Positions 3,924 through 26,627 of a stretch of 31,448 nucleotides of DNA are shown here, piece after piece. Each line of letters begins with the position of its first letter. The first letter of the stretch is position 1. The DNA lies in assembly GCA_001799195.1 (NCBI GenBank), contig MGSU01000262.1:1-31448 (forward strand). The letters run 5' to 3'. The notes under the pieces were generated by a model, which was given only the letters and a program-made list of their open reading frames with translations, did not search any database and was not told where the DNA came from. The position numbers and the translations under genes were made by a program. The DNA comes from Deltaproteobacteria bacterium RIFOXYA12_FULL_61_11. Lineage in GTDB: Bacteria; Bdellovibrionota_F; JAHFAK01; YA12-FULL-61-11.

Positions 3924-4132
3924 TCCCCCGCCACGCGCAAGGATGAGCATGGTGGGGGCGGCCGCAAGGATGCGGACCTCCAGCGCCGCGTAGGATGCAG
4001 CGGAGTCGGGGTGCGAGGCGACAGGACCCCTCGATCCACCCACGACTGAACTGACAAGTTGCGCACACGGTTGACTTGTGGTTTCGAGCATTGGAAAGAG
4101 ATACCTTGCGGTACGGCACCTGGAAGAAGGTC

Positions 4133-4780
4133 ATGACCACGGGAGAGCAGGAGCAAGGCGAGCGGATCATACTCCTCCTCGATGACGATCCGAATTTCTT
4201 CCGGCTGCTGCGCCTCGTGTTGCCGGAACACTACTCCCTACTCTGGTGCACGCGGGGCGAGGATGCTTTGACCCTCCTCTCCGCACGACCGGTAGACCTG
4301 GTTCTGGTCGACCTGTTGCTCGATGGAGTACGGCCAACCTCGAGTCGCGCGTTCGTGTCGGCAATCTCCGCACAGTACCCGTTCCTGAAGGTCGTCCTGC
4401 TCAGCGCTCATCTCCACGACAGCGTGGTCGAGGACTTCCTGGAAATGCCGAATGTCGTCGATGCCTGGGACAAGAACGTGCAAGAAACGCTGCTCGTGCG
4501 CCGGCTGGCCAACTTGTGCGCCTCCGGTCAACCTCGCTACAGCGCCTCCGACCCCATCGCCTTGCTGGAGCTCTTCGAACGCCAACGACACCTCTGCGCC
4601 CGCCTCGATCGTTTCCTCACGGTCGGGGTGATCGGTATCGTGGAGCACTTGGCCGCCGAACGCGACATTTCCCGCAGCGAAGCCTTGCGCTACCTCGGCT
4701 TGGCGCGCTCGACCTATTACCGGATGTTGCATGAACAGAAAGGAGCATGGGATTGTGATACTACGCTGCCAGCAGAGTGA
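4133..4780 (+). CDS. Response regulator: receiver domain plus C-terminal helix-turn-helix
   Basis: The 215-residue protein starts at ATG 4133, just after the strong site GGAAGAAGG; a TTG at 4076 in the same frame has none. The receiver domain is intact: acidic cluster Asp17-19, phosphoacceptor Asp60 in 'DLVLVDLLL', Ser91 and Lys114. After a short linker the last 60 or so residues contain a helix-turn-helix-like segment ('RDISRSEALRYLGLARSTYYRML') resembling Fis-type or transposase-type DNA-binding helices, so it probably acts as a transcription regulator. Its end overlaps the next gene, showing an operon with the TonB-dependent receptor and the NtrC-type activator. The degenerate histidine phosphotransfer protein diverging from it is a candidate phosphodonor (inference). 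Confidence 0.85.
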   Translation: MTTGEQEQGERIILLLDDDPNFFRLLRLVLPEHYSLLWCTRGEDALTLLSARPVDLVLVDLLLDGVRPTSSRAFVSAISAQYPFLKVVLLSAHLHDSVVEDFLEMPNVVDAWDKNVQETLLVRRLANLCASGQPRYSASDPIALLELFERQRHLCARLDRFLTVGVIGIVEHLAAERDISRSEALRYLGLARSTYYRMLHEQKGAWDCDTTLPAE

Positions 4781-6698
4781 GGCCCTCTTCTCCCCGCCTC
4801 GCTTCCTCTGGGCAATGGTGCTTGGCATGTGGAGTGCGCTCGGTGGTGCTGCAGTCGAGGACGAGCAGACCCTGCGAGAACCCCGGCGCGTGGTGCTGGA
4901 ACCCGAAGTCGCTCCAGACCGGATTTGGCCACGTCGCAGCTCGGTTATCGAACGCGAGGACTTCGATGATCGCGCTGCCGTGCAGGTCGACGAGGTCTTA
5001 CGGGGCCATCCCCAACTCGACCTTGCCGCGGCCGGAACCGTGGGCGAAAGCAGCAAGGTCCGTCTGCACGGGGTCGATGATCGCCGGATTGCCGTGTCCT
5101 ACGAAGGGTTCCGCTTGAACTCGCCCCTTGATCATTCGTTCGATTTCAACATATTACAAGCCTTCGCCTTTGAACGGATCGAGGTGCTGGGGGGACCGTG
5201 GTCGGTGCTCTACGGCAGCGACTCGGCCGGCGGGGCCATCGTGCTGGTCCCACGGGCACGGGTGAGTGAACCGCTGGCCCTCGCGGTCCTGGCAGGTGCG
5301 CGGCCGACCTTGTACGAACAGGCCTATGGTGGTACGGCCCTCGAAGAGGGTGGGTTGTTCCTCGGTGCGGCCAGGCACGACAGCGCAGGGGTCGGCTCGA
5401 ACGACCGGTCCAACGCCACAGGGTTCGCCCTCCAGGCTGAACTGGTCCGCGGCCAACATCGCTTCTCTGCTTTTTCCCTGGGGTCAGCCCTCGAGAAAGG
5501 TGTCGCGGTAGAACTCGGGCCCGCCGGTTTTGTGCGTGACCGAGATCGGGAGCTGCAACGCATCTTCGCCCTCGCCGGGGTCGGTTACGACGTGCTCTTC
5601 GGCGATGAGGCGACGATCAAGGCACGAGCCGGGTGGCTCTTCGATGGCACCACCCTGCGAGACGGTCCCGAGGCAGACGATGGAGCGGCCTTTGGTACTC
5701 GCGACCGAGGCTATCGCTACGCCGCCGAGGTCGTCGCCGAGGTGCAACTCGCGGCGGACCACCTCCTACGCGCGGAACTCGAGGTCCAGCACGATCGGGT
5801 CGAGAGCGCGGTCGCTGCTTCGGCCGAGTATGTCGATCAGGGACTCGCTCCGGCAGCGAAGACGATCCCTGCCTATTCCGTGGTCGATCGCTATCGCCCC
5901 CTCTCGGGGTTGACTCTCGAGACCGGGGTGCGTTTCGATCACTATGCCGGGTTTCCCGAAGTCACTCCTCGTGCCGGTGCCGAGTATCGGCTGACCTCGA
6001 CCGGCACCGCCGTGGTCGTGGCTGTCGGCAAAGGCTTTCGAGCGCCGTCGCCGTTGGAGCTCTCCGCCTCGCCCGTCGCCAATGCCTCGCTCGAGCCGGA
6101 ACAGAGTATTGAAGTCCTGGCAGGCCTTCGCCAAGCGCTGTTCTCGGAGCGCCTCCAGTTCGACGCAGAGGCCTTCCACGCTCGACATCGCGGCCTCATT
6201 CAGCTCGACCCCGGGACCGAACGCTTGGAGAACCTCGGCCGGGTAGACGTGGATGGCATCGACCTGCAGGTCTCGTTGCAACCGTGGCGCGGGTGGCAGC
6301 TACGCAGTGGCTGCAAGGCAATCCTGGCGCGGGATCTCCTCGCGGCGGAAGGCCAACCAGAGGAACTGCCCTTCCAGCCGCGGCTGACCTGGTCGGTTGC
6401 GGCCCGGGGCGAACTGGACGCCTGGAGGGGGTTCGTCGAGTATCGGGTCATAGGATCCTCGGTCAACCACCCCTATGTCATCGGTACCCCCGGCCTTGAC
6501 GGGGTCCCCCTCGGAACCCGCGGCGGTGCCCACAATCGCCTGGATCTCACCCTCGCGTACCGTTTCCGTAAGGTTATCGGCGAAACGCTCGAGCTTCGCA
6601 CCAAGCTCCTGAACGCCTTCGACGAGCGCAGTTCCGAGGTAGCCGGCTATGCTCCCTCGCCGCGGGAAATCTTTCTCGGCGCAGCGGTCGCGTTTTGA
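4755..6698 (+). CDS. TonB-dependent outer-membrane receptor
   Basis: I chose GTG 4755, nine bases after AAAGGAG; an in-frame ATG at 4731 has no such site. The product is 647 residues with an N-terminal signal, although its cleavage site is unclear. The plug domain (about residues 55-160) has typical parts: 'VDEVLRGHPQLDL', 'SSKVRLHGVDDRRIAVSYEGFRLN' and 'FERIEVLGGPWSVLYGSDSAGGAIVLV', closest in style to BtuB/vitamin and siderophore receptors. The remainder is a beta barrel with 'VGKGFRAPSPLEL' and 'GVRFDHYAGFPEVTPRAGAEY', ending in Phe as outer-membrane proteins do. It imports a scarce ligand using TonB energy; the ligand is not evident. It overlaps the regulator before it and the activator after it, so the three are co-translated. 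Confidence 0.92.
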   Translation: MILRCQQSEALFSPPRFLWAMVLGMWSALGGAAVEDEQTLREPRRVVLEPEVAPDRIWPRRSSVIEREDFDDRAAVQVDEVLRGHPQLDLAAAGTVGESSKVRLHGVDDRRIAVSYEGFRLNSPLDHSFDFNILQAFAFERIEVLGGPWSVLYGSDSAGGAIVLVPRARVSEPLALAVLAGARPTLYEQAYGGTALEEGGLFLGAARHDSAGVGSNDRSNATGFALQAELVRGQHRFSAFSLGSALEKGVAVELGPAGFVRDRDRELQRIFALAGVGYDVLFGDEATIKARAGWLFDGTTLRDGPEADDGAAFGTRDRGYRYAAEVVAEVQLAADHLLRAELEVQHDRVESAVAASAEYVDQGLAPAAKTIPAYSVVDRYRPLSGLTLETGVRFDHYAGFPEVTPRAGAEYRLTSTGTAVVVAVGKGFRAPSPLELSASPVANASLEPEQSIEVLAGLRQALFSERLQFDAEAFHARHRGLIQLDPGTERLENLGRVDVDGIDLQVSLQPWRGWQLRSGCKAILARDLLAAEGQPEELPFQPRLTWSVAARGELDAWRGFVEYRVIGSSVNHPYVIGTPGLDGVPLGTRGGAHNRLDLTLAYRFRKVIGETLELRTKLLNAFDERSSEVAGYAPSPREIFLGAAVAF

Positions 6699-8161
6699 AA
6701 CCCGAGGCCGCGACCGTCCTGGTGATCGACGACGACGAGAACTTCCACCGTTTCGTCGACCTCGCTCTCGGCAGCCGCTATCGCCTGATCCACGACCATC
6801 AGGGGGATCGCCTACGGGACGTCCTGGCCGGAGAGGGAGTGGACGTACTCCTGCTCGATCTCAAGCTCCCGCACCACAACGGTTTGAATCTTCTCGAGGA
6901 GGTGCACCACCTCGATGCCACGATCGAGGTGATTATCCTCACAGTGGTTCGAGAAATACCCGAGGTAGTACGGGCGATGAAAGCCGGCGCCTACGATTAC
7001 CTTACCAAAGACCTGGATTTCTCTCTGCTCGAGGAGGTGGTCAGACGGGCCGTCATGCATCGCCGCCAAAAGTTGGAGTTGGAAACGCTGCGCCTGGAGG
7101 TGCAACGTTTCCCCTTCCATCGCCTGCACTGGGGTTGTTCCGAGCGCATGCAGACCGTACGCTCGCAAGTCGTGCGGGCCTCGGCGGCGCCGTCCTCCGT
7201 TCTGTTGACCGGAGAAAGTGGGGTGGGCAAAGAAATGGTGGCCCGGGAACTCCATCTCCTGAGCCCACGCTCCAGAGAACCGTTCCTCGCCGTGAATGTG
7301 TGCGCAATTCCCGACAACTTGGTCGAATCCACCTTGTTCGGACATGAGCGCGGTTCCTTTACCGGTGCGACCAGGACCAAACGAGGGTGTTTCGAGCAAG
7401 TCAGGTCGGGGAGCCTCTTCCTGGACGAGGTCGGGGATCTCCGGCAGGATACCCAGGTCAAGCTCCTGCGCGTACTACAGGAGCGATCGTTCGAACGGGT
7501 CGGCGGGGAAGCACGCATCCCCGTACGTTGCAGGATCATCACTGCGACCAATCGCGACCTGCGGACCATGGTCGCGCGGGGGACGTTCCGGGAGGATCTT
7601 TTCTACCGCATCAACGTGGTACCGATCGAACTCCCACCGCTCCGGGAGCGATTGGAAGATCTCCCGATGCTGATCGCGCATTTCCTGGACAAGCACAATC
7701 GCATCTTGTCGAGGAAGGTCATTGGTCTGAACGAAGAAGCGATGGCGGCCTTGCGGTGTTATCCCTGGCCCGGCAACGTACGCGAGCTCGAGAACCTCGT
7801 CGAGAGGTTGATCGTCCTGAACGGGGACGGTTTGTTGGGTCTCCACGACCTGCCGCTGGAATATTATCTCCGAGGTGCATGCGCCGACCCAAAAAGCAGG
7901 TGCGGAGAGTACCGCACGAGCATGGAGTCCTACGAACGGGAGCTATTGCGCCGGGTACTCGAACAATGCCGTGGGCATCGACGACGAGCCGCGGCACGAT
8001 TGGGGGTACCTCTCTCGACCTTGAAATTTCGGCTCGCCAAACTCGGCTTGCACGCCACGCCGAGGAACGAGACCGAAAGCTCTCATCGCGACACGACGTC
8101 CCAATCCGGCAAACCGAAGAAGGGTCGTTCTCCGGGGTCAGGTCCGATCAACCTCACGTGA
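6695..8161 (+). CDS. NtrC-family sigma-54 activator (receiver, AAA+, Fis helix-turn-helix)
   Basis: The start is TTG 6695, whose bases overlap the TGA of the receptor gene, so translation is probably coupled. The 488-residue protein has a receiver domain (acidic residues in 'VIDDDENF', phosphoacceptor Asp55 in 'LLLDLKLP'), then an AAA+ domain with Walker A GESGVGKE near residue 173, the sigma-54 contact loop GSFTGA (220-225; the usual form is GAFTGA), Walker B 'GSLFLDEVGDL' and the arginine segment 'FREDLFYRINVVPIELPPLRER'. A Fis-type helix-turn-helix follows (about 410-455, 'GHRRRAAARLGVPLSTLKFRLAKLGL'). The last 33 or so residues are low-complexity and lie antisense to the end of the next gene. 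It would activate sigma-54 promoters when phosphorylated; the kinase at 11297 is a plausible partner. Confidence 0.93.
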   Translation: MKPEAATVLVIDDDENFHRFVDLALGSRYRLIHDHQGDRLRDVLAGEGVDVLLLDLKLPHHNGLNLLEEVHHLDATIEVIILTVVREIPEVVRAMKAGAYDYLTKDLDFSLLEEVVRRAVMHRRQKLELETLRLEVQRFPFHRLHWGCSERMQTVRSQVVRASAAPSSVLLTGESGVGKEMVARELHLLSPRSREPFLAVNVCAIPDNLVESTLFGHERGSFTGATRTKRGCFEQVRSGSLFLDEVGDLRQDTQVKLLRVLQERSFERVGGEARIPVRCRIITATNRDLRTMVARGTFREDLFYRINVVPIELPPLRERLEDLPMLIAHFLDKHNRILSRKVIGLNEEAMAALRCYPWPGNVRELENLVERLIVLNGDGLLGLHDLPLEYYLRGACADPKSRCGEYRTSMESYERELLRRVLEQCRGHRRRAAARLGVPLSTLKFRLAKLGLHATPRNETESSHRDTTSQSGKPKKGRSPGSGPINLT

Positions 8162-9585
8162 TGCGCCAGGTGGCCGGTTCGCCAATAGAGGACGATACCC
8201 GGCGGGTCCTCTCTGAGGACCTCTTGCAGGCGCTGGTAGGCGGCGGCGAGGTCCGGGGTGTCGGGGACAGAGGCGCGCAGGAAGCGGAACAAGGACAACG
8301 CCTCCCGATTGGCGTAGCCGATGAGGTCATGATCGAACAGCAAGTTCAACCAGTCCGTACCCGCCGCGGGGAAGCTCGGCACATTGAGCAGGGTGGCCTC
8401 GGCCGTGCATGCCGCGTCCTTCGGGTCGAGCGTCACCCCGCGATCGCGCACGGCGAAACCGAGATTGAGCAGGTCGTTGCCGAGGTAGCGCATGGCCGCG
8501 GCTAGGTCGGGGGTCTGTTCCTGGGACCGGTCCAACAGGACCCCAAGACGGCAATCTCCCACGTAGAGCCCCTCGTTGCGCCGGATCGCGCCGGCCTCGA
8601 TCAGAAGAGTCCGAGCCGCCGCGGGATCGTAGGTACGAACCGGTCCGGGTCGGTAGTGCGGATGGGCCGGGCTGAGCAGGGAGTCCGCGAGGTAGGCTTC
8701 GCCGGGAGCGATAGCCGCGAGAATGCCGGCTTTGTCCACCCCCAGGTCCAGTGCTCTCCTGACCAAGGGAGCAGCGAAGAAGGGCACGCGGTTGTTCAGG
8801 GCCACCATGACCGTAGCCGGGAGAAAGACCTGTACAACCTTGCACGAGGGGAGGGTGGAGAGACGAGCCGCCGCTCCGGCTGACAGGGCCGGATAGTACT
8901 CCAGGTCACCGCGAATCAGCGCCGTAAAGATGCGGGTTTCATCGGGCAGACTCGTGAGCAGGACGCGATCGAGTCGGGGTAAGCGTCCATAGTACAAGGG
9001 GTTGCGGACAAGGAGTATCGAGGCTTCCGTGGCGCTGACTACCCGGAACGGTCCTGTCCCGGGCGGGGCGGCGCGGAGTTCGCGGTCACCGTCGACAAGC
9101 AGGTGCCGGGGTAAGATACCGAGCATGGTCAGGTCCAACGCCGCCTCCGGGAGCGGTGGCGAGAGCTCCACGGCCAGAGTGCGCTCATCGATCACCTCGA
9201 CCTGACCGAAGCGCAGCGAGGCCAGCGAGACGAGGTAGTCGCCACGCCGATACGCGTCGATCGTAGCGGCTGCGTCGGCGGCCCGGACCGGCGAGCCGTC
9301 GTGGAAGTGCGCGTCGGGCCGCAGAGTCAACACCGTCCGGCCTGCGCCGTCGGACTGGGCCGACTCGAGAAGGGCCGGAACGACCCGGTAGTGCTTGTCG
9401 AGACGGTAGAAACCCTCGTACACCAGCTCCGCGACCATGGCGGCCCAGCCATGGTCTTCGTCTCTGGGATCGAGATGGTCGAAGCTGCCGAGACAACCAA
9501 TGGTCACGGTTTTCGGCGTGGGCAGGTAGAGTCGCTGAGGGGCAAAAGCAAGCACCAGGAGGATGGTACGGGCGATGATTCTCAC
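8083..9585 (-). CDS. Extracellular solute-binding protein, family 5 (SBP_bac_5)
   Basis: The 500-residue protein starts at GTG 9585 and has a signal sequence (MRIIARTILLVLAFAP). The body follows the family 5 pattern: 'TVTIGCLGSFDHLDPRDED', 'AELVYEGFYRLDKHYRVVPALLES', 'TLRPDAHFHDGSPVRAADAAATIDAYRRG', 'GTGPFRVV' and 'LDLGVDKAGILAAI'. Relatives capture peptides, nickel or metal-chelator complexes in the periplasm and hand them to an ABC importer. No permease or ATPase gene is in the window, so the protein either works with a distant transporter or acts as a sensor. It lies 84 bases after the radical SAM gene on the same strand, so it is probably co-transcribed with it. Its last 79 bases overlap the oppositely directed activator gene. 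Confidence 0.87.
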   Translation of the reverse strand: MRIIARTILLVLAFAPQRLYLPTPKTVTIGCLGSFDHLDPRDEDHGWAAMVAELVYEGFYRLDKHYRVVPALLESAQSDGAGRTVLTLRPDAHFHDGSPVRAADAAATIDAYRRGDYLVSLASLRFGQVEVIDERTLAVELSPPLPEAALDLTMLGILPRHLLVDGDRELRAAPPGTGPFRVVSATEASILLVRNPLYYGRLPRLDRVLLTSLPDETRIFTALIRGDLEYYPALSAGAAARLSTLPSCKVVQVFLPATVMVALNNRVPFFAAPLVRRALDLGVDKAGILAAIAPGEAYLADSLLSPAHPHYRPGPVRTYDPAAARTLLIEAGAIRRNEGLYVGDCRLGVLLDRSQEQTPDLAAAMRYLGNDLLNLGFAVRDRGVTLDPKDAACTAEATLLNVPSFPAAGTDWLNLLFDHDLIGYANREALSLFRFLRASVPDTPDLAAAYQRLQEVLREDPPGIVLYWRTGHLAHHVRLIGPDPGERPFFGLPDWDVVSR

Positions 9586-9626
9586 CCGCCCATCCTACCG
9601 TGGGTGCTACGGCTTCGCCAAGCTTT

Positions 9627-9698
9627 TCAGTAAAGTTGATAGGGTCTGCAGTAGGAGAGAACGATGTGTTTACGAGGCTGCTTCTTGCGGGTTTCCAT
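9627..9698 (-). CDS. Candidate 23-residue RiPP precursor peptide (small overlapping frame)
   Basis: The frame starts at ATG 9698 inside the 3' end of the radical SAM gene, in another frame, and stops at TGA 9627-9629. A near-ideal AAGGAG ends six bases before the ATG. The peptide begins METRKKQPRK, a basic leader-like part, and ends SYCRPYQLY, with one Cys and three Tyr as possible targets of a radical SAM/SPASM enzyme. PqqA and methanobactin precursors are of similar size. The sequence matches no family that I recognise. It is supported only by the ribosome binding site, position and composition; the frame could be fortuitous because AAGGAG is also part of the codons of the host gene. Confidence 0.42.
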   Translation of the reverse strand: METRKKQPRKHIVLSYCRPYQLY

Positions 9699-10992
9699 GG
9701 AGGACTCCTTCGGTGAAAGGGTTTGGCACATCCTGACCGAGGTGGCGTTCCCTGATCAGGTACAAACCTACCGTTTCCAGGTAGGGTTTGTTGCAGGGGG
9801 GCGGCGCCGACCGGTGCAACCGCATGGTGTGCTCCGAGGGACAACCACCGCCGCACAGGGGTAGGTATTCGCAGCGGCGACAGCCTGCCCGGAGCGGGGG
9901 TCGATCTTTTTCCCGGAGCTGAGAAGCAGAAGCGATCGACCCGAGTCTGAATTCAGGGCGACCGTAGGTTTCTGCGCACAGGTAGAGGTCGCCGATCGGA
10001 TCGAGGGCATAGGAGTGTTTGCGCAGGGCTTGGCAAGGGCCGCACGCGATCTGATCGGCGACGCAAAAGCCGGCCTCGAGGATGTGCCGATGTAATGCTA
10101 TGATCTCACATGTTTTTTGCACGCAGTTGGCCGCTGCGAAGTCGTTCGCCCAATCGGGATGAGCCAGGCCGGGGGTGGCCGGTCCAAGGCGTATCGCTGC
10201 GATATGGTCTTGCAGAGCATGGTCGGCCAGGTAATCGACCAGTTTGAAGAGAGGTTGCGGGTCGTCCAGATAGAGCCCGTTGATGATGGGTCGGCATATC
10301 CCGCGCAAGCGGACGAGGTTCTTCATGATGCGGGCAAAGGTCGGTTGCCCGTTCCGCAAGGGTCTTGTGCGGTTATGGGCATCACCGACGCCGTCGAGGG
10401 TCACAACGACGGTAAGAGGCGCGAAGGCCTGTAAGCGCGAGATCAAGGCGGGTTCGAGGAACCAGCCGTTGGTGGTCATGGAGAGGGTGAGTTCGATGTC
10501 GGCTTCTCGTAGGGGCTGAGCCAGCGCTGTGAGGATGTGGAACATGGCCTCACTGTTGAGCAGGGGTTCTCCCCCGATGAATTTGCAGACCACCCGCTCG
10601 GGCTGATGGCAGGCGATGCGGGTCAGCATCCACGCCGCAACCTCACTGGCGGTCGCGCGAGTCATCGACGGTCGGTGTTGCATGGAATGTTGATAGCAGT
10701 ACGAACAGGCGAAATTGCACGCTAGCGTGGTGGCAATGGTGAACTGGAGTTCCGAGTCGTCGGCCAAGGTCTGTTCGAGCATGCCTTCGTATTCACCGAC
10801 CTCGTCGTGTCCGTCCGCTTCGAAGAAGCTCTCGTGCTCAGCCGGGAGGGGAGCCCCGTCGAACGGGGCACCGGGGCGATACAAGTCGGCCAGCTCGGCG
10901 TCGAGCTCGCAGCAGTGATCGGTAAAGCTGTTGTAGACGAATGTCCTATCGGTCGGACCGGGCAGGACGATATTGAATTGCGATGCGTGCAT
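9670..10992 (-). CDS. Radical SAM/SPASM peptide maturase
   Basis: The 440-residue enzyme starts best at ATG 10992 (MHASQFNIVLPG); an in-frame GTG at 11004 is possible. The N-terminal region ('FNIVLPGPTDRTFVYNSFTDHCCELD') resembles the head domain usual in peptide-modifying SPASM enzymes. The radical SAM core carries CNFACSYC (Cys92, Cys96, Cys99) for the SAM-binding 4Fe-4S cluster, then 'KFIGGEPLL' (GGEP motif) and 'LSMTTNGW'. The C-terminal SPASM part has 'CGPCQALRKHSYALDPIGDLYLCAETYG' and 'CRRCEYLPLCGGGCPSEH' plus a later Cys, enough for two auxiliary clusters. Such enzymes crosslink or otherwise modify ribosomal peptides, or act as sulfatase-maturing enzymes; no sulfatase is nearby. It is the first gene of a minus-strand set with a candidate small peptide and a binding protein. 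Confidence 0.9.
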   Translation of the reverse strand: MHASQFNIVLPGPTDRTFVYNSFTDHCCELDAELADLYRPGAPFDGAPLPAEHESFFEADGHDEVGEYEGMLEQTLADDSELQFTIATTLACNFACSYCYQHSMQHRPSMTRATASEVAAWMLTRIACHQPERVVCKFIGGEPLLNSEAMFHILTALAQPLREADIELTLSMTTNGWFLEPALISRLQAFAPLTVVVTLDGVGDAHNRTRPLRNGQPTFARIMKNLVRLRGICRPIINGLYLDDPQPLFKLVDYLADHALQDHIAAIRLGPATPGLAHPDWANDFAAANCVQKTCEIIALHRHILEAGFCVADQIACGPCQALRKHSYALDPIGDLYLCAETYGRPEFRLGSIASASQLREKDRPPLRAGCRRCEYLPLCGGGCPSEHTMRLHRSAPPPCNKPYLETVGLYLIRERHLGQDVPNPFTEGVLHGNPQEAAS

Positions 10993-11063
10993 GACCGGGA
11001 TCACCGAGAGGTCGAACTGGGCAACGCCTAGTGGAAGATCGATGCCAGGAAGGGAACGGCAAA

Positions 11064-11104
11064 ATGATTATTAGAATACATAATGACAACATGTTATATG
11101 AATG
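11064..11104 (-). promoter_or_regulatory. AT-rich island, probable promoter region of the radical SAM operon
   Basis: In the 292 to 304 bases between the divergent radical SAM and kinase genes, this stretch is strikingly AT-rich. On the minus strand it holds TATAAC (11093-11098) and TTGTCA, but I could not pair a good -35 and -10 at standard spacing. I see no other gene in this gap. Confidence 0.3.
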
Positions 11105-11296
11105 CTACCTTGTCCAAACGATGGTTTCGAGCTAACATTTTGCCTCGTGCCTGCCTGCGGAGCCCGCCACGTGGAGCCAGGTCGGGAGGCAGCGCGGTTC
11201 GGCACGATGTGACGAAATCTTGTCCTTTACGGCCGAAACCTTGACCTGGTACCGAAGCGCCGGATGGTTCGTTGGGAGCTGTCTCGAGGGGGGACG

Positions 11297-12976
11297 ATGC
11301 GCCGTTTTGCCGTCCAGATGGCCATCCTGTTGTGCTTGGTCGGGGTGCTCCCACTGGGCGTACTCGGCTGGTCAGCGATGGCAGCGGCCGAACAGACGGC
11401 GTTGCGGGAGTTCGAGCGCAACCGCATCGTACTGTCCGATCTGTTCGGCAAGGTGATAGAAGAAACAACCTTGCGCATGACCCGTCAGGTGGACGGACTC
11501 TTTGCCCTGCTCCGACGCAATGTCGTCGCTCCTGAGCGCCGGGCTCAACTCCTCGACGAATACCTCCTCCAAGGCAAGGACATGTTTCTCAGCCTCCAGG
11601 TCTATGAGACAGGGGGGAGCGGGTTCCAGGGGTCGGGGCCGGTCGCGGCCGACCATCCCTTACCCGAGGTGTGGCGGGACTGGCCGGACGGTACCCTGAC
11701 TCCGATCGAATTGGAACATGGCCGCCTGCCGCGGGCATGGTACCTGAGGAGGGACGAGAACTTCCTCCTTGCCGCCGAACTCGATCTCGTCTTCGTCTGG
11801 GGGCTGATCGACGGGCTCAAGGTCGGACGGAGCGGCCGGCTGCAGCTCATCGTGGGCGATATCCTGGTGGCCGCGGGTGATCCGCGGCGTAAACGCTCGC
11901 TGTTCAGGGCGCTTCCGCCGACCGAGCTGGAGGTCTTGCAGAGGATCGCTCGCGACGGTAGCGGCACCATGGTCCAGGAAGGCCGGGAGGTCTTCGTTCG
12001 GATCACGAAGGATGACCGCTTGCAGTGGACGATCATCTTCACCGAGGACGTGGAGGAGGCGTTCGAGCACCTCCTGGCCCTGCGGAGCAGGTTGTTCTGG
12101 TCCTTGTTCCTGGTCGGATTGGTTGCCTTGGGGCTGGGCTGGTTGGTGAGCAATACCCTGTTCCTCCGCCCTGTCGCGGTGCTGCTTGCCTTCACCTCGG
12201 CCATCGGTCGGGGGCAATGGCGTGAACGCCCACGGGTACCGTGGTTCAACGAGATCGGCCAGCTCGGTGCGGCCTTGAACACCATGACCGACCAACTCGA
12301 GGAACTCACCCACCGCATCCGCAAGGGAGAACGGGAAGCCTTGCTCGGACGCATCGCTTCGGGCCTGGTGCATGATCTTCGCAAGCCTTTGATAAACATT
12401 GGACATTGTCTCACACTCTTCAACAAGAAGAAGCTGAATACCGAGGAACGAACGCTGGCCGACATCCTCGGGGCCGAGTTGTGCAATCTCGAACGCTTCG
12501 CCCAGGATCTCGCCACCCTCGGTACCCCGCGAGCACCGGCTCTCGTGCCGGTCGAACTGCATTCCTTCCTCGAACGGGTCTTGGCACCGTTCCGCACCGG
12601 CGGTTGCAGTATCGGGTTGGTCACACCTCCGGAGCAGGTGGTCCTCCGACTCGATGCCTTCATGGTCGAACGTGCCCTGGCCAATCTTGTCAAGAATGCC
12701 GAGGAAGCCCTGCAAGGACGCGCCGACGGAAAGGTCGAGCTCAGGGTCGAACCCGTGGAGAACGAGGTCCTCCTCGTGGTCGAGGACAATGGTCCTGGCA
12801 TGCCCCTTGGCGAGGGAGAGGATCCTTTTTCCCGCTACACCTCCGACAAGCGACGAGGGGTCGGCCTTGGGCTGGCCATCGTGAAGAAGATCGTGGAGAG
12901 CCACGGTGGAGAAGTCACGGTGATCAGTGCAACGGGTCAGGGCACCTGCTTCACGCTCCGCTTCCCGCGTTCATGA
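11297..12976 (+). CDS. Membrane sensor histidine kinase
   Basis: The start is ATG 11297, after GAGGGGGG; another ATG at 11264 lacks such a site. The 559-residue protein has a first membrane segment (about 5-27), a periplasmic sensor region of about 240 residues (probably Cache-like), a second segment ('LFWSLFLVGLVALGLGWLVS'), a HAMP linker, and a complete kinase core. The phosphoacceptor is His359 in 'GLVHDLRKPL', followed by the N box 'ALANLVKNAEEAL', G1 'VVEDNGPGMP' and G2 'GVGLGLAIVKKIVESHGG'. The core resembles NtrB/ZraS-type kinases, which phosphorylate NtrC-type activators. No regulator is directly attached, so the activator at 6695 is the nearest fitting partner (inference). It diverges from the radical SAM operon and shares a terminator hairpin with TolC. 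Confidence 0.92.
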   Translation: MRRFAVQMAILLCLVGVLPLGVLGWSAMAAAEQTALREFERNRIVLSDLFGKVIEETTLRMTRQVDGLFALLRRNVVAPERRAQLLDEYLLQGKDMFLSLQVYETGGSGFQGSGPVAADHPLPEVWRDWPDGTLTPIELEHGRLPRAWYLRRDENFLLAAELDLVFVWGLIDGLKVGRSGRLQLIVGDILVAAGDPRRKRSLFRALPPTELEVLQRIARDGSGTMVQEGREVFVRITKDDRLQWTIIFTEDVEEAFEHLLALRSRLFWSLFLVGLVALGLGWLVSNTLFLRPVAVLLAFTSAIGRGQWRERPRVPWFNEIGQLGAALNTMTDQLEELTHRIRKGEREALLGRIASGLVHDLRKPLINIGHCLTLFNKKKLNTEERTLADILGAELCNLERFAQDLATLGTPRAPALVPVELHSFLERVLAPFRTGGCSIGLVTPPEQVVLRLDAFMVERALANLVKNAEEALQGRADGKVELRVEPVENEVLLVVEDNGPGMPLGEGEDPFSRYTSDKRRGVGLGLAIVKKIVESHGGEVTVISATGQGTCFTLRFPRS

Positions 12977-13032: not shown

Positions 13033-14361
13033 TCACCCCTCTTGCCGCCCCATGGCCGTCCCGAGCGCCAGTACGGCCAGATCGCGTTGCAAGCGTTCCA
13101 GAATCACGCCGGTACGAGCGGAAGCCAGCTTGGCCGCCGCATCGCTGACCTCCAGGCTGGTGGCCAGGCCGACCTCGTACTGCAGATGCACCAGACGGTG
13201 GTTCTCGGTCGCGAGTTCGAGTTGCTTCTCGGCGAGCCCGACATGCCGTTCGCGTTTTTTCACCTCCAGCCAGGCCTTGCGGACCTCCTCGCGGACCGAG
13301 AGGTAGAGCTGGCGGTGCTGGTTCCTGGCCACGCGCAGGGCGGACTCCCGTTCGGCCAGTTCCGCGGAGCGCAGACCGCCGTCGAAGAGCTGCCACGAGG
13401 CTCCGAGGATGATTCTCCAGGTATCGTGCTCGCCCGAGAAGCCGGTGGCGGAATCCCAGGCCCACGCATAGGTGAGGTCGACGTTGGGAGCCCACTTCAT
13501 CCAGGTCTCCTGGGTCAAGTAGCCGGCCAACGAGACCTGCATCGAGGCCGAGCGCAGGTCTGAGCGCTGATCGAGGGCTCGGTCGATGGCCGAGGTTTCG
13601 TCGGGGAGCTCGAGCACCGGCTTCGCGGGCATGGCGAGGGTCGTGGGGGACGTGTCGAGATCCAGGAGGGCGGCGAGAGCGGAGAGGGCCGTGGCATTCC
13701 CGTCGCTGCTGTCGGCGAGGTCTCGGGAGGCGGAGAGGGCCAGACTCTCCGCTCGCAAGACATCGATCCGGGTCCCCTGCCCGGCAGAGGTCAAGGCAAT
13801 GGCTTGCCGATGGAAGGCCTGGGCATTCTTCTCGTTCTCGCGGGCCGCCTCGATCAACTCGCCCGAGGCATAGGCCTGGCGATACGCCGAGGAGACGGCA
13901 AAGAGCAGGGTCTCGAGACTGCGGCCCGCCTGCCCTGCGGTCGCATCTTTATTAAGGTACGCGTAGCGGAGGAGCGGCAGGGAACGGGCATTGAACAGAG
14001 AGATGCTGGCGTTCAGGCCGGCGTGCCTGCCCCACAGCTCTTGGATCACGGTGCGCGACGATGCCGCGGGCGCCGGATCGCCGCTGAGCTGCGAGAGCGC
14101 GGCCGTCAGTTCGCCGAAATCGAGAGCGATCTCGCGTTCGTTGCGGGTCAGGTTGCCATCGAGGTTGAGCCTCGGCAGGAGGATGGCCCAGGCCTTGTCG
14201 ATGAGGAGTTCTGCCTGATGCAGGCTCTCTTCGATCGTGCCGGCCGCGGGGTTGCGCTCTCTGGCCAACTGCAGGGCACTCGGCAGGTCCAGTTCGTCGG
14301 CTCGGGCCTGGAGGGGCGCCGCAATGAAGAGCGAGCACAGGAGCAACGCGATGAGGAACAT
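13033..14361 (-). CDS. TolC-family outer-membrane efflux protein
   Basis: ATG 14361 follows GGAGG by four bases and gives a 442-residue product with a clear signal peptide (MFLIALLLCSLFIAAPLQARA). A longer frame upstream to 14526 would run through the end of the pump gene and is not credible. The protein shows the two-fold OEP pattern: 'LDLPSALQLARERNPA' at the start, long Ala/Leu-rich helical stretches, and 'NVDLTYAWAWDSATGFSGEHDTWRIILGASWQLFDGGLRSAELAERESALR' with the family's W-x-L-F-D-G-G-xR signature in the second half. It would form the outer-membrane channel of the tripartite pump encoded just upstream (11-base gap). It is the last gene of that operon. Confidence 0.93.
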   Translation of the reverse strand: MFLIALLLCSLFIAAPLQARADELDLPSALQLARERNPAAGTIEESLHQAELLIDKAWAILLPRLNLDGNLTRNEREIALDFGELTAALSQLSGDPAPAASSRTVIQELWGRHAGLNASISLFNARSLPLLRYAYLNKDATAGQAGRSLETLLFAVSSAYRQAYASGELIEAARENEKNAQAFHRQAIALTSAGQGTRIDVLRAESLALSASRDLADSSDGNATALSALAALLDLDTSPTTLAMPAKPVLELPDETSAIDRALDQRSDLRSASMQVSLAGYLTQETWMKWAPNVDLTYAWAWDSATGFSGEHDTWRIILGASWQLFDGGLRSAELAERESALRVARNQHRQLYLSVREEVRKAWLEVKKRERHVGLAEKQLELATENHRLVHLQYEVGLATSLEVSDAAAKLASARTGVILERLQRDLAVLALGTAMGRQEG

Positions 14362-14372
14362 GAGACCTCCGA

Positions 14373-17300
14373 TCAGGACTGGCGTGGGAGGATGCGGCCG
14401 AACAGCCGGCGGGAGACGTCCACGACCCTGGCCTGGACGAGATACATCACCGGCACCATGATCAGGGTCAGCACCGTGGCGAAGGACAGGCCGAAGCTCA
14501 CGGCTCGGGCCAGGGGGCCCCACCACTCGACCGTCGAGGAACCGGTGTCGATGGAGAACGTGGTGAAGTCGATGCTGATCCCGAGGGCCATCGGCAACAT
14601 CCCCAGGATGGTCGTGATCGCGGTCAGGAGCACGGGTCGGAACCGGGTGACGCCGGCGCGCAACAGGGCCTCGCGCAAGGGAAGGCCATGTTTCGTCAAG
14701 AGCTGGTCGGTGTAGTCGATGAGCACAATGGCATTGTTGACCACCACCCCAGCCAGGGAGATCACCCCCATGCCGGTCATGATGATGCCGAACTTCTCCC
14801 GGAACAGCAGGAGTCCGAGCAGCACGCCGATCAACGACATGACCACCGATCCCATGATGATCGCCGGCCGCAGGACCGAATTGAACTGGGTGATCAGGAT
14901 CATCAGGATGAGCAGGAGGCCGATGAGGAAGGCCTCGGACAGGAACTCGACCGCTTCTTGCTGGTGTTCGTCCTCACCGCTGTAAGTCACGAAATACCCT
15001 GGCGGGAGTTGGAGTTTCTCCCCGAGCAAGGCCTTGACCTCGAGCATCACCTCGGAACTACTGCGGCCGCTGACATCGGCGCTGACAAGGATGGTACGCC
15101 TCCGGTCGATGTGCTTGATCGAGCCGAGACCGCCGGTCGTGCGCACCGTGGCCACATCCCGGAGGGGAACCTGGACGTCGTCCTTGCCCGTGACCCTGAG
15201 GTCGAGCAGATCGGCGATGGAGGCCCGGAAGCGCTCGTCGGAGCGGACGACGATATCGTACTCTTCTTCTCCTTCGCGCAGCACGCTGACCTTGGTCCCG
15301 TTGATCGCCGACCGCACGGCCTGGGAAATGACCAGGGTATCGACCCCGCGGAGCTTGGCCTGGACCCGATCGATCTCGACGACCAGCTCGGGCTTCCCGG
15401 CTTCGTAATCGTCCTTGAGGTCGACCACCCCCTGGATGGTCCCGAGGAGTTCCTTGACCTCGCGAGTCAGTCGGGTGCTGACGGCATAGTCCGGGCCGGA
15501 GATTTCGACCGAGACCGCAGCGCCGGTCGGTGGGCCGTGCTTCTCCACGTCGACCTTGAACTCGCCGCCCGCCAGGCCGGAGAGGAAACCTCGGAAGGCC
15601 TCGATGGAATCCCAGGTGCTGTGCGTCCGCTCGTGCCGGTCCTTGAACTCGACATCGGCCACGGCCAGGTGACTGTTGCCCCCGCCGCTCTGCAGATTGA
15701 GCATGCCGCCGCCGTACCCGACGTTGGCGATGGTCATTTTCACGTTGTCCTCTGTCTGCGCAAAGGCTTCGACCTGGCGCATGTACCCATCGGTGGTGGC
15801 CAGGGTCGTCCCCTGCGGGGCCTTGATCGAGACCTGCGCCCGCTCCGGGGTGCTGGAGGGGAAGAACTCGATGCCCGAACCGAAGCGGGCATAGGCCATA
15901 ACCGTCACGATCAGGAGGAGGTTGCTCGCGCTGATCAGCCACCACGGATGGTCCAGGGACCAGGCCAGGACCCGGTGGTACCGCCCGAGGACCGGTCCGG
16001 TCGGCACGCCGCTGTCGTCGAAGAGCTTCTTCCCGCTCGTGCGCAGGAAGCTGCTCGCTGTGACCGGATTGATGACCAGGGCCACGAACAGGGACGCGAA
16101 GAGGGCGATGATCACGGTCTTGGGGAGGTAGCCCATGAAACTCCCCATGACCCCCTCCCAGAACAAGAGCGGGGCGAAGGCCACGACCGTGGTCAGGGTC
16201 GAGGTGATCACCGGCCAAGCCACCTCGGAGGTAGCACCGATCGCGGCGAGGTTGCGTTCGGTCCCTTCCGAGGCATGCCGATAGATGTTCTCGATGATGA
16301 CGATGGAATTGTCGACCAGCATACCCAGCGCCAGGATGAGCGAGAACAACACCACCATGTTCAAGGTAACGCCCAGGAGGCGCAGGGCGATGAAGGTGAT
16401 CAACATGGAGAGGGGAATGGCCAGGGCGACGAACGACGCGTTGAGCAATCCCATGGCCACGAACAAGACGAGCAGCACCAGGAGCAACCCGCTGATGATG
16501 TTGTTCTCGAGGTCGGTGACGATATCCCGGATATAGATGCTCTCGTCCTTGACCACCTCGACCTTGGTACCCGTGGGCAGGGTCGGCGAGAGCGCGGCGA
16601 GGTCGGCCCGGATGCGCTCGGCCATGCGCACGCCGTCTTCGCCCGCGCGCTTGACCACCCGCAGGTTGATGCTCTCGATCCCGTCGGTCCTCGAGATGGT
16701 GGTGCGCTCGGCGAACCCGTCGATTACCCGACCGATATCCCGTAACTTCACGGGGTTACCATTGGGGCTCTTCAGCACGAGGTCCTCGAGGAGCCGTACA
16801 TCCTTGTATTCGCCGGGAATGCGCACCGTGTATTTGCTCTGGCCCAGTTCGAGGTTCCCGGCCGGGGTGGTCAGGTGCTCCTGTTGGATACGGCTGATGA
16901 CCTGACCGAACCCGAGCTCGTAGAACTCCATCCGGTTCGGGTCGAGATAGATCTGGATCTCCCGTTCCAAGCCGCCGACCATGTCCACGCCGAGCACGCC
17001 CGGGACTTGCTCGACAACGTCCTCGATGTCCTCGGCGACCTGCTTGAGCCTGACCATGCCGTAATCCGCGGCCACGTTGACCAGCATGATCGGGAACTCC
17101 GAGATGTTGATCTCGATCAGGACCGGGTCCTCGGCATCGCGAGGCAGGTCCACCTTGGCCTTGTCGACCTTGTCGCGGACCTTCTCGTAGGCGTCGTCCA
17201 TGTCCACATCGGTCTCGAACTCGATCGTGATGATGGAGACGGACTCCGAGCTGGAGGACGAAAGCTTCTTGACGTCCTTGAGGTCCTTCAGCTCGCGCTC

Positions 17301-17501
17301 GAGCACATTGGTGACCAACTTCTCGAGGTCGGTGGGAGCCACCCCGAGGTAGAGGGTCTGCACCAAGATGATCGGAATTTCGATGTCCGGGGCACTCTCC
17401 AACGGCAACACGCGGTACGCATTGACTCCCGCGATGAAGAGCAGGAGCACCAGGACATAGGCGGTGGGTTTATGAGAGACGGCGTAGGAGGTGATGCTCA
17501 C
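14373..17501 (-). CDS. RND-family efflux pump, inner-membrane subunit (AcrB/HAE1 type)
   Basis: GTG 17501 follows GAGGAG, giving 1042 residues, the normal length for the family. The first membrane helix (about 12-30) leads into 'LPLESAPDIEIPIILVQTLYLGVAPTDLEKLVT', typical of the porter domain. The central helices include 'GMLVDNSIVIIENIYRH' in helix 4 with its essential Asp, and the second half has 'GVVVNNAIVLIDYTDQLL' in helix 10. The protein uses the proton gradient to expel substrates through the membrane fusion protein and TolC; the sequence does not show which substrates. It is preceded by the fusion protein after 10 bases and followed by TolC after 11. The strand opposite carries a long spurious open frame caused by high-GC codon use. 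Confidence 0.96.
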   Translation of the reverse strand: MSITSYAVSHKPTAYVLVLLLFIAGVNAYRVLPLESAPDIEIPIILVQTLYLGVAPTDLEKLVTNVLERELKDLKDVKKLSSSSSESVSIITIEFETDVDMDDAYEKVRDKVDKAKVDLPRDAEDPVLIEINISEFPIMLVNVAADYGMVRLKQVAEDIEDVVEQVPGVLGVDMVGGLEREIQIYLDPNRMEFYELGFGQVISRIQQEHLTTPAGNLELGQSKYTVRIPGEYKDVRLLEDLVLKSPNGNPVKLRDIGRVIDGFAERTTISRTDGIESINLRVVKRAGEDGVRMAERIRADLAALSPTLPTGTKVEVVKDESIYIRDIVTDLENNIISGLLLVLLVLFVAMGLLNASFVALAIPLSMLITFIALRLLGVTLNMVVLFSLILALGMLVDNSIVIIENIYRHASEGTERNLAAIGATSEVAWPVITSTLTTVVAFAPLLFWEGVMGSFMGYLPKTVIIALFASLFVALVINPVTASSFLRTSGKKLFDDSGVPTGPVLGRYHRVLAWSLDHPWWLISASNLLLIVTVMAYARFGSGIEFFPSSTPERAQVSIKAPQGTTLATTDGYMRQVEAFAQTEDNVKMTIANVGYGGGMLNLQSGGGNSHLAVADVEFKDRHERTHSTWDSIEAFRGFLSGLAGGEFKVDVEKHGPPTGAAVSVEISGPDYAVSTRLTREVKELLGTIQGVVDLKDDYEAGKPELVVEIDRVQAKLRGVDTLVISQAVRSAINGTKVSVLREGEEEYDIVVRSDERFRASIADLLDLRVTGKDDVQVPLRDVATVRTTGGLGSIKHIDRRRTILVSADVSGRSSSEVMLEVKALLGEKLQLPPGYFVTYSGEDEHQQEAVEFLSEAFLIGLLLILMILITQFNSVLRPAIIMGSVVMSLIGVLLGLLLFREKFGIIMTGMGVISLAGVVVNNAIVLIDYTDQLLTKHGLPLREALLRAGVTRFRPVLLTAITTILGMLPMALGISIDFTTFSIDTGSSTVEWWGPLARAVSFGLSFATVLTLIMVPVMYLVQARVVDVSRRLFGRILPRQS

Positions 17502-17511
17502 GAGGGGCTCC

Positions 17512-18588
17512 TCAGTCGGTGACTACCTGGATCTGCTGACCATCGGAGAGCCCCCGCTGACCGAGGACGATCAGGCGATCGCCGGGCGCGACCCCGGAGG
17601 TGAAGAGGACCCGTTGACCGTCCGCGAGCGCTGTCTCGACCACCCGACGCCGCGCCACGCCCCCCTCTTCGAGGTAGACCACACGCCCGGCCGACTCCTC
17701 GAGCACCACGTCCTGGGGTGCCACCAGGACTTCCTTGAAATCGCGGACGCGCAGGTGCACGGTGGCGGCCATACCCACGCGGATGCGATACTCGGGATTC
17801 TTCACCAGGATCCGGACCTGGAAGGTCCTGCTCAGGGGATCGGCCGCTGGGAGGATCACGTGGACCTTGCCCTCGAAGTCGGTCCCGAGCGCGTCGATCC
17901 TGACCGTGGCCCGATCCCCTCGCTTCACCTCTGCGATCTGGTTCTCGGGGAGTTGGGCCTTGACCACGATGGTGCTGTGATCGACAACCTGAAGTACGGG
18001 CATCCCCGGGGCGACGTATTCCCCTTGGTCGGCAAAGGTCCGGGCCACGATACCGTCGATCGGGGAGACGAGGCGGCTACGCTCCAGGTTGACTCGGGCG
18101 ATCTCGTGCTGGGCTTCGGCCGATTGGAGCCGGGCCAGAGCTTCGTCGATGGCCTGTTCGCTGATCATCTCTTCCCCTCGCAAGGTGGTCAAGCGCTCGT
18201 GGGTCCGTTTGGCCAGGGTGAGGGAGACCGCGGCCTGGTCGGCCTGGGCCTTCTGCATGGCGTAATCGATGCGCGCGATTTCCTGGCCTTTCTTCACCCG
18301 TTGCCCCAACGCGACGGTGAGCTGCTCAAGACGGCCCGCGGTCTCGGCCGAGAAGGTGAGGTCCTGATCGGCGTCGGTCACCCCACTCAGGGTGATGGTC
18401 CGGCTGAAGGAGGTCGGCTCGAGGACCTGGATCCTCACCTTGGTCAAGTTGCCCGAGTTCGGCCCGGGTCCGAGGGTGGTTCGCTCCTGCGGGGTCGCCG
18501 CATTTGCAGCGGTGCCGACCGGCTCGCTAGGGCTACAAGCCGTTAGACCGGCTGCTGCGAGGATCAAGCTGAACAGGAGAGGGTTCAT
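17512..18588 (-). CDS. RND efflux membrane fusion lipoprotein (HlyD/AcrA family)
   Basis: The 358-residue protein starts at ATG 18588 with AGGAG seven bases before it. The signal ends in a clear lipobox (LTAC, Cys18). It then shows a beta-barrel and lipoyl half ('GVTDADQDLTFSAETAGRLEQLTVALGQRVKKGQEIARID'), a helical hairpin (about residues 110-165), and the second lipoyl half 'SRLVSPIDGIVARTFADQGEYVAPGMPVLQVVD'. It links the RND pump to TolC in the periplasm. The gene is the first of the three pump genes and lies 68 bases after the large AMIN protein gene on the same strand. Confidence 0.95.
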   Translation of the reverse strand: MNPLLFSLILAAAGLTACSPSEPVGTAANAATPQERTTLGPGPNSGNLTKVRIQVLEPTSFSRTITLSGVTDADQDLTFSAETAGRLEQLTVALGQRVKKGQEIARIDYAMQKAQADQAAVSLTLAKRTHERLTTLRGEEMISEQAIDEALARLQSAEAQHEIARVNLERSRLVSPIDGIVARTFADQGEYVAPGMPVLQVVDHSTIVVKAQLPENQIAEVKRGDRATVRIDALGTDFEGKVHVILPAADPLSRTFQVRILVKNPEYRIRVGMAATVHLRVRDFKEVLVAPQDVVLEESAGRVVYLEEGGVARRRVVETALADGQRVLFTSGVAPGDRLIVLGQRGLSDGQQIQVVTD

Positions 18589-25530: not shown

Positions 25531-26627
25531 GACCGTGGCTCGGACCTATCCTCCTCTCTCTGCTCACCGCGTGCGGCCAGACCACGTACAGGGCAAAGAT
25601 CGACCAACTGGTCGCGCGGCCCCTGTCCTTCAACCGCGCCCTCTTCGACGGAGCATTGTGGAAGGCACACCTCCTCTACCGCGACGGCAGCCGGGCCTTC
25701 GACCATCACGAGTACGGTCGGGCGTACGAGCTCCTCAGCGAATACGTGCGCCGCTATCCCGAGGGAGAACTCCTGCCCAGAGTGCATCTCAAGCTGGGCT
25801 TGACCTGTAGGGAATTGAACGAACCGGGCAAGGCCGCCGACTACTTCTCCCGCTACTTGCGCCAGAGCGACCACCGCTTCGAACCGCCCCGTCACTTCTT
25901 CTTCGCCGCGGAAGCCTACGCTGCCGACGAGCACTACCACGAGGCCCTCTTCTACCTGGATCAGCTCGAAGGACACTCCTTGCTGAGCAACCAGGACACC
26001 GTCCGACTCGCCCTGCTCCGGGGTTTTTATGCCTTCGGGCTGCGCCACTTGGAGGACTCGGAACGGCAACTCCTGCGTTGCCTCGACTACATCGACACCT
26101 ATCGCACCTACCTGCCTGCCATCGAAGACTGGGAACGGGCAAAAGCGTACCACGTCCTCGGAGAGATCCAGGTCCACCGTGCGCTGCACGAAGAGGTACG
26201 AGCCCCCGAGGCCGGGCCGGACAAGGTGTTGGGGGATAGAGCCTACTGGACCGAGCGGGCCGAGTATTACTTCAGGAGGGCCATCGAGGTCGGTGACACG
26301 GGCATGGCCATGAGCAGCCTGCAGCGTATCGCCGAGTTGTACCTGGGCCTGTACCGCCTCCTGCTGCCTTCCTTGGTCATACCTGCATCAGTGCCGAGAG
26401 CCGAGGCCGACCGGCTACGGCTCCAGTTCCGCCAGGAGGTGGGTCTGCTGGCCAAGAAGGCCCAGCATGTCTACCAGCGAGCGTGGTCGTTCGCCAAGGA
26501 CGTTCAAGAACTCGAGACCTGGTTGCCCACCATCGAAGCAGGCCTGGCCGAGGTCGAGGTCGAGTTGGCCGCGTGCGGCTTGCTGGCGCCCGTCCTCGAG
26601 GTCCACCCTCCCAAAAAGGCTCCCTAG
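25527..26627 (+). CDS. TPR-repeat lipoprotein
   Basis: ATG 25527 overlaps the stop of the ATPase gene. The 366-residue protein has a short signal and lipobox (LLTACG, Cys16). Helical repeats follow from about residue 45 to 275: 'AFDHHEYGRAYELLSEYVRRYPEGELLPRVHLKLGLTCRELNEPGKAADYFSRYLRQ' and similar pairs, as in outer-membrane TPR proteins of the YfiO/BamD kind. The second half is a long helical region with many Leu and Ala. It probably serves as a scaffold at the outer membrane. Its partners are not known; the operon link to two cytoplasmic ATPases is unusual. Its stop shares four bases with the ComEC stop. Confidence 0.82.
   Translation: MRPWLGPILLSLLTACGQTTYRAKIDQLVARPLSFNRALFDGALWKAHLLYRDGSRAFDHHEYGRAYELLSEYVRRYPEGELLPRVHLKLGLTCRELNEPGKAADYFSRYLRQSDHRFEPPRHFFFAAEAYAADEHYHEALFYLDQLEGHSLLSNQDTVRLALLRGFYAFGLRHLEDSERQLLRCLDYIDTYRTYLPAIEDWERAKAYHVLGEIQVHRALHEEVRAPEAGPDKVLGDRAYWTERAEYYFRRAIEVGDTGMAMSSLQRIAELYLGLYRLLLPSLVIPASVPRAEADRLRLQFRQEVGLLAKKAQHVYQRAWSFAKDVQELETWLPTIEAGLAEVEVELAACGLLAPVLEVHPPKKAP

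Follow-up and report, generated by a model that had tools for sequence, protein, structure and literature searches.

Peptide pheromones are classically a feature of Gram-positive bacteria. Among the described systems, four come close to the locus found in the window, i.e. in the whole stretch of 31,448 nucleotides analysed here. The first is the geopeptide system of Geobacter, whose maturase is represented in NCBIfam by the model TIGR04280. This model is the best family match of the window maturase, both enzymes fall in the same maturase group (support 96/98), the peptide is encoded beside the enzyme, and a TonB-dependent receptor, a periplasmic binding protein, a kinase and an NtrC-type regulator are found in the neighbourhood. 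The two systems differ in their peptides, which carry a CC pair and an acidic EVLDEG-like leader in Geobacter and one Cys and a basic leader in the window, and in their binding proteins, which belong to PF04392 in Geobacter and to solute-binding family 5 (SBP5) in the window.

The second system, methanobactin, also combines a short precursor, a TonB-dependent receptor and a family 5 binding protein, MbnE, for which no inner-membrane importer is known (PMC7558416). However, methanobactin is matured by MbnB/MbnC, whereas the window encodes a radical SAM/SPASM maturase together with a kinase and a sigma-54 regulator. When the locus genes were scanned with Pfam and NCBIfam, no MbnB/MbnC-type protein was named, MbnE (5icq, E-value 2e-10) is only a mid-list relative of the window SBP5, and the window locus shows no sign of a metal. 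Because the maturase is a radical SAM enzyme, the window system is not methanobactin, and the likeness is architectural only.

The third system, LuxP-LuxQ, provides a precedent for a kinase reading a binding protein (PMC7584622). Here again the gene of a periplasmic binding protein neighbours that of a kinase whose sensor domain is periplasmic, in our case by prediction. LuxP is of the ribose type, whereas the loci studied here have SBP5 or PF04392 proteins, and their presumed ligand is a modified peptide that would need a TonB-dependent receptor. By analogy, the window system resembles a hybrid of LuxPQ sensing with methanobactin uptake, without belonging to either. Finally, the SCIFF maturase CteB and other thioether-forming SPASM maturases have their SPASM cysteines in common with the window enzyme, and CteB is its best fold match; but identity is below 20%, the target is not a SCIFF peptide, and the NCBIfam scores lie far under the cut-offs of these families. 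No published account of the present gene set was found in the open-access literature searched.

The window makes up one contig of an assembly that amounts to 4.6 Mb and is 87% complete, and the closest genome in our comparison set has only the class in common with it. A preliminary description, made from the sequence alone, had named a receptor, an activator, a binding protein, a SPASM enzyme, a 23-codon frame and a sensor kinase, all of which were confirmed where it had placed them, the protein families by Pfam and NCBIfam scans (Table 1).

Table 1. Genes of the peptide locus in the window
Feature	Position	Strand	Evidence
Response regulator	4133..4780	+	Open frame 4076-4780, ATG 4133; Response_reg 8e-9
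TonB-dependent receptor, BtuB/CirA-like plug	4731..6698	+	Pfam Plug 2e-19, barrel 5e-29
NtrC-type sigma-54 response regulator	6695..8161	+	Receiver, Sigma54_activat 7e-65, HTH_8 (Pfam)
Family 5 solute-binding protein (OppA/NikA/MbnE superfamily)	8083..9585	-	SBP_bac_5 2e-47
23-codon precursor peptide METRKKQPRKHIVLSYCRPYQLY	9627..9698	-	Shine-Dalgarno AAGGAG 9710-9705; equivalents beside the maturases of other phyla
Radical SAM/SPASM peptide maturase	9670..11004	-	Radical_SAM 2e-14; TIGR04085 SPASM 45 bits, cut-off 27
Histidine kinase, predicted periplasmic dCache-type sensor	11264..12976	+	HATPase_c 7e-24, weak HAMP

The first response regulator, made of a receiver and a C-terminal HTH-like region (Xre-like-HTH weak and under its cut-off), opens a regulator-receptor-activator operon. 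The receptor possibly starts slightly downstream of the position given, and an N-terminal signalling domain was searched for in it and not found. Its nearest NCBIfam model is a B12 receptor, with a score far under the cut-off, and its PDB relatives are matched through the plug only. Kin of the window SBP5 include NikA, CntA and MbnE and also peptide binders. Its relatives in the PDB bind peptides, nickel or metallophores; together with those of the receptor, they leave the choice of ligand undecided. No permease linked to this protein was recognised among the genes scanned, which were part of the neighbours. The true start of the maturase is likely Met5, at about 10992, and the predicted structure of the kinase sensor region matches dCache domains.

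The preliminary description had also reported an exporter as missing. The window indeed has no dedicated exporter and no leader peptidase, but a TolC/RND permease/periplasmic adaptor (MFP) efflux operon (13033-18588, minus strand) adjoins the kinase. Strictly speaking, the window therefore does not lack an exporter. This operon is a possible export route for the peptide, and nothing ties it to the locus. In most of the complete Omnitrophota loci, an ABC exporter lies between the maturase and the kinase. Elsewhere in the window, on the minus strand, we observed a ComEC-like competence protein with a metallo-beta-lactamase domain (26624-28912) and a protein in which four stretches resemble the quinohemoprotein amine dehydrogenase alpha domain III and TIG is matched weakly (30100-31446); the latter is probably a surface protein of the repeat type.

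A tree of 61 maturases placed 40 of them in one group (support 96/98), apart from 21 other SPASM maturases. This group comprises the window enzyme, those of the genome G015, of UBP13 and of HOT.CON.50, 14 from Omnitrophota and 21 Geobacter-type enzymes. Within it the window maturase, which like its SBP5 is very divergent, pairs with that of G015 (92/93), both branches being long. The closest named relative of the clade is the geopeptide maturase family; the window enzyme scores 140.3 bits against TIGR04280, below the curated cut-off of 400. By this cut-off it is not a geopeptide maturase, though group and genomic context are in common. At the thresholds used, TIGR04280 matches occurred in 59 of the 146 genomes sampled from the Geobacter class (58 of 146 over the family cut-off), in 14 of 237 Omnitrophota genomes and in 23 of 386 broadly sampled genomes, the latter including other SPASM types without the neighbours. 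Genomes G516, G566 and G591 of the broad sample are further likely members. A plasmid search with the maturase returned only distant SPASM proteins. As a separate observation, a Phycisphaerales genome carries five radical SAM/SPASM genes in tandem (L033, 5513-12366).

Nine relatives were compared with the window maturase, and the cluster cysteines C96/C100/C103 (CxxxCxxC) and the SPASM cysteines C324, C343, C375, C378, C384, C388 and C404 were invariant. The structural model (pLDDT 80) matched best the fold of CteB (5why, Z 26.1) over residues 8-423, and within this full-length model residues 8-80 align with the N-terminal part of CteB. The enzyme probably cross-links the neighbouring 23-residue peptide. 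A cross-link centred on Cys is likely because the cluster and SPASM cysteines are invariant and CteB is the best match of the model; from this fold and the invariant Cys of the peptides, the link at the Cys-containing C-terminal core would most likely be a thioether.

The window peptide has a basic leader, a single Cys and an aromatic C-terminal core. Its ATG lies six bases after the AAGGAG, about 28-29 bases inside the 3' end of the maturase gene. Since no close homologue of the window locus is available for a codon test, the reality of the peptide is argued comparatively. The best homologue of the window maturase, at 31% identity, is that of G015, a genome of another phylum and the sole one of that phylum in the comparison set; there a 21-codon frame behind AGGAGG, MKVLKIKKVVRQKAVCSWYLY, overlaps the maturase end. 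In a third lineage (G516), the peptide MKVIVLKKGVKPEKVCAWFKY has the same position as in the window and G015, that of HOT.CON.50, MKIIKKGSKIIVPRPDCQWVLDHR, follows the maturase directly, and that of UBP13, MKLTVIR(V/T)GKPGPLGCVILR, lies upstream of it. The UBP13 pair shows 6 synonymous and 1 non-synonymous codon changes in the peptide, a coding signature. In this genome group, a 37-aa frame after the G016 maturase (MQEARFEV...) was rejected: it runs into the beginning of SBP5 in a different frame, and the conserved UBP13 peptide is upstream.

Peptides of relatives in other phyla read ...AVCSWYLY, ...KVCAWFKY, ...PDCQWVLDHR and, in Omnitrophota, ...CCWPPGTE.., where the frames follow the pattern ME(I/V)(I/V/L)xxG...CC(W/F/Y/M)PxG. 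The Geobacter frames read ...EVLDEG...CC followed by a variable tail. The Cys is invariant in the cores, the other core residues not being conserved. In Geobacter, mean pairwise identity reaches 63% in the leader against 14% in the core, taken as the residues after the invariant CC; this contrast would fit a core that bears the specificity, as one would expect if the signal diversified in specificity. Among Geobacter-type loci, L161 has two maturases and three peptide genes with a common leader and different cores (9156-12436, minus strand, and flanks). In a Bipolaricaulota MAG (L049), a strong-Shine-Dalgarno CC peptide, MRVLRGKLDVIIMGCCRSHSAPKKGFEA (5335-5421), lies upstream of a maturase (5538-6881), and no receptor, binding protein or kinase was recognised around the latter.

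To qualify as a peptide, a frame beside a maturase had to have an ATG with a strong Shine-Dalgarno, 18-45 aa and a Cys in the C-terminal half. Such a frame was found beside 36 of 55 clade maturases, the expectation from simulated sequence being 0.95, and in the controls 0 of 55 times on the opposite strand and beside 1 of 28 other SPASM genes. Owing to the relatedness of the 55 loci, they do not count as independent events; it is the spread over phyla that carries the argument. On this comparative ground, we consider that the 23-codon frame is a real gene.

Of the 38 clade loci, 36 had a binding protein within 8 kb of the maturase, 33 a TonB receptor, 34 a kinase and 30 a recognised response regulator, several absences being due to contig ends. 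The same searches of 28 other SPASM loci (389 kb) found a binding protein, a receptor or a kinase in none of them. As neighbours were typed by sequence similarity to reference proteins taken from clade loci, divergent receptors and kinases may be missed, in the controls too. The gene set recurs in at least five phyla. For instance, G015 has the set of the window in another phylum, namely an NtrC-type regulator (adjoined by a receiver-only regulator), a receptor, the maturase with its overlapping 21-aa peptide, an SBP5 and a kinase. The typical order in Omnitrophota is NtrC, receptor, SBP5, peptide, maturase, ABC exporter, kinase and AraC-type regulator, not all being present everywhere. Geobacter loci have a receptor, a PF04392 binding protein (non-homologous to SBP5), a kinase and NtrC around the maturase, and UBP13 loci an SBP5, a dCache kinase and a LytTR regulator. 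Thus maturase, receptor, binding protein and small frame stay linked in other phyla, which supports the central proposal of the preliminary description, that the SPASM enzyme matures a peptide working with the receptor, the binding protein and the kinase and activator.

The receptor is not universal, since no linked one was found in the UBP13 loci, nor in L217 and L218. We rejected the explanation that a receptor is linked only where an outer membrane exists: UBP13 is diderm, with BamA and one solo TonB receptor elsewhere, and has no linked receptor. An SBP5 tree was also discarded as a test of co-inheritance, its branching being without resolution and only four unlinked SBP5 proteins included. 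Two arrangements are recorded here as such: upstream of a related maturase in L231 (3402-8630), a kinase has a family 5 binding protein on either side, a TonB receptor lying opposite, and in L217 (8198-8809, minus strand) a Type IV pilin-like protein lies between the peptide and SBP5 genes.

In four Omnitrophota loci, the binding-protein/peptide/maturase operon, whose first gene is SBP5, is immediately preceded by a near-consensus sigma-54 site (TGGCAC-N5-TTGCT type). Three of these have NtrC in view, and the contig of the fourth, L153, is cut upstream. No such site precedes SBP5 in the NtrC-less loci, nor in L145/L146 despite an NtrC gene. The position of the sites before this operon and their absence from the NtrC-less loci suggest that the NtrC-type regulator controls peptide production in the loci bearing them. 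No strong site was found at the G015 locus, and a candidate promoter at the window locus was rejected (best score 11.4 of 14.5). In the Geobacter-type loci L159 (13593), L161 (5648) and L167 (13590), a sigma-54-like site stands before the NtrC gene itself and not before the peptide.

The best explanation, held with middling confidence, is that the locus makes, recaptures and senses a small modified ribosomal peptide as an autoinducing signal. First, the maturase, probably by means of its N-terminal domain, would recognise the basic leader and cross-link the Cys-containing core, most likely by a thioether. Next, the product would be exported, by the ABC exporter in Omnitrophota, and brought back into the periplasm by the TonB-dependent receptor. 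There the orphan family 5 binding protein would bind it, and the dCache kinase would read the complex of the two. Finally, the kinase would control the sigma-54 activator, closing the autoinducing loop. The genes, the clade, the linkage, the peptide family and, for some relatives, the exporter and sigma-54 sites are observed, whereas we infer modification, transport direction, ligand identity and signalling role. The lack of a recognised permease next to the binding protein would agree with a sensing role in the manner of LuxP and LuxQ, although MbnE likewise has no known inner-membrane importer. Several points count against the signal: the variability of the cores also fits ordinary RiPP diversification, the UBP13, L217 and L218 loci have no linked receptor, the window SBP5 and maturase are very divergent, the window has neither a dedicated exporter nor a leader peptidase, and strong sigma-54 sites are absent from the window and G015 loci and from before SBP5 in L145/L146.

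The secreted peptide could instead bind a metal and return through the receptor and binding protein, the kinase sensing the loaded peptide or the metal, on the model of methanobactin or the opine metallophores. The TonB receptor and SBP5 do correspond to the methanobactin uptake pair MbnT/MbnE (PMC7558416), the window SBP5 has metal-related kin, though peptide binders too, and the invariant core Cys could act as a ligand. However, no inner-membrane importer or metal regulator was recognised in the loci, the Geobacter binding protein is of PF04392, the kinase is as constant as the receptor, the non-Cys core residues are not conserved, and a thioether would use up the Cys. We regard this metallophore-like role as unlikely; a metal function of the window locus is a candidate that we do not favour. 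The autoinducing signal is preferred to it because the kinase is near-constant in complete loci and the cores are hypervariable.

Improbable, in our view, is an exported antimicrobial or envelope-acting RiPP with receptor, binding protein and kinase serving immunity or regulation. Bacteriocin loci commonly have hypervariable cores and an ABC exporter, but the producer's own receptor and binding protein would be unusual immunity genes, and no immunity-type gene was recognised. The peptide could also be the precursor of a redox cofactor or small molecule recaptured via the receptor, the kinase reporting on supply. PQQ biosynthesis likewise uses a short precursor, PqqA, and a SPASM maturase, and the TonB-dependent PQQ receptor PqqU is among the weak matches of the window receptor. 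Yet no excision protease, oxidase or PqqB/C-like gene was among the recognised neighbours, and the core is hypervariable, whereas a cofactor precursor should keep its cross-linked residues, which makes this reading quite improbable. That the window frame arose by chance, its enzyme having another target while the peptides of relatives are real, is very improbable: the frame overlaps the maturase gene, lacks a close homologue for the codon test and has a per-locus chance of about 2% (0.95 expected in 55), but it is alike to those of G015 and G516 in place, length, basic leader, single Cys and C-terminal Tyr.

Returning to the autoinducing signal, we tentatively extend it, as a quite possible generalisation, to a Gram-negative-type signalling class of at least five phyla, in which a radical-SAM-modified peptide would be exported, recaptured by a TonB receptor and read by a binding protein and a two-component system, the hypervariable cores acting as species-specific signals. 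Since the gene set recurs so widely, it looks like a widespread means, apparently not described before, by which Gram-negative-type bacteria produce a ribosomal peptide, take it up again and sense it. A peptide that a diderm makes for its own use in this way has to cross the outer membrane twice. With the genes for production, recapture and sensing side by side, including in culturable Geobacter relatives, the idea is directly testable, and a maturase family so far named only after its peptide gains a functional context.
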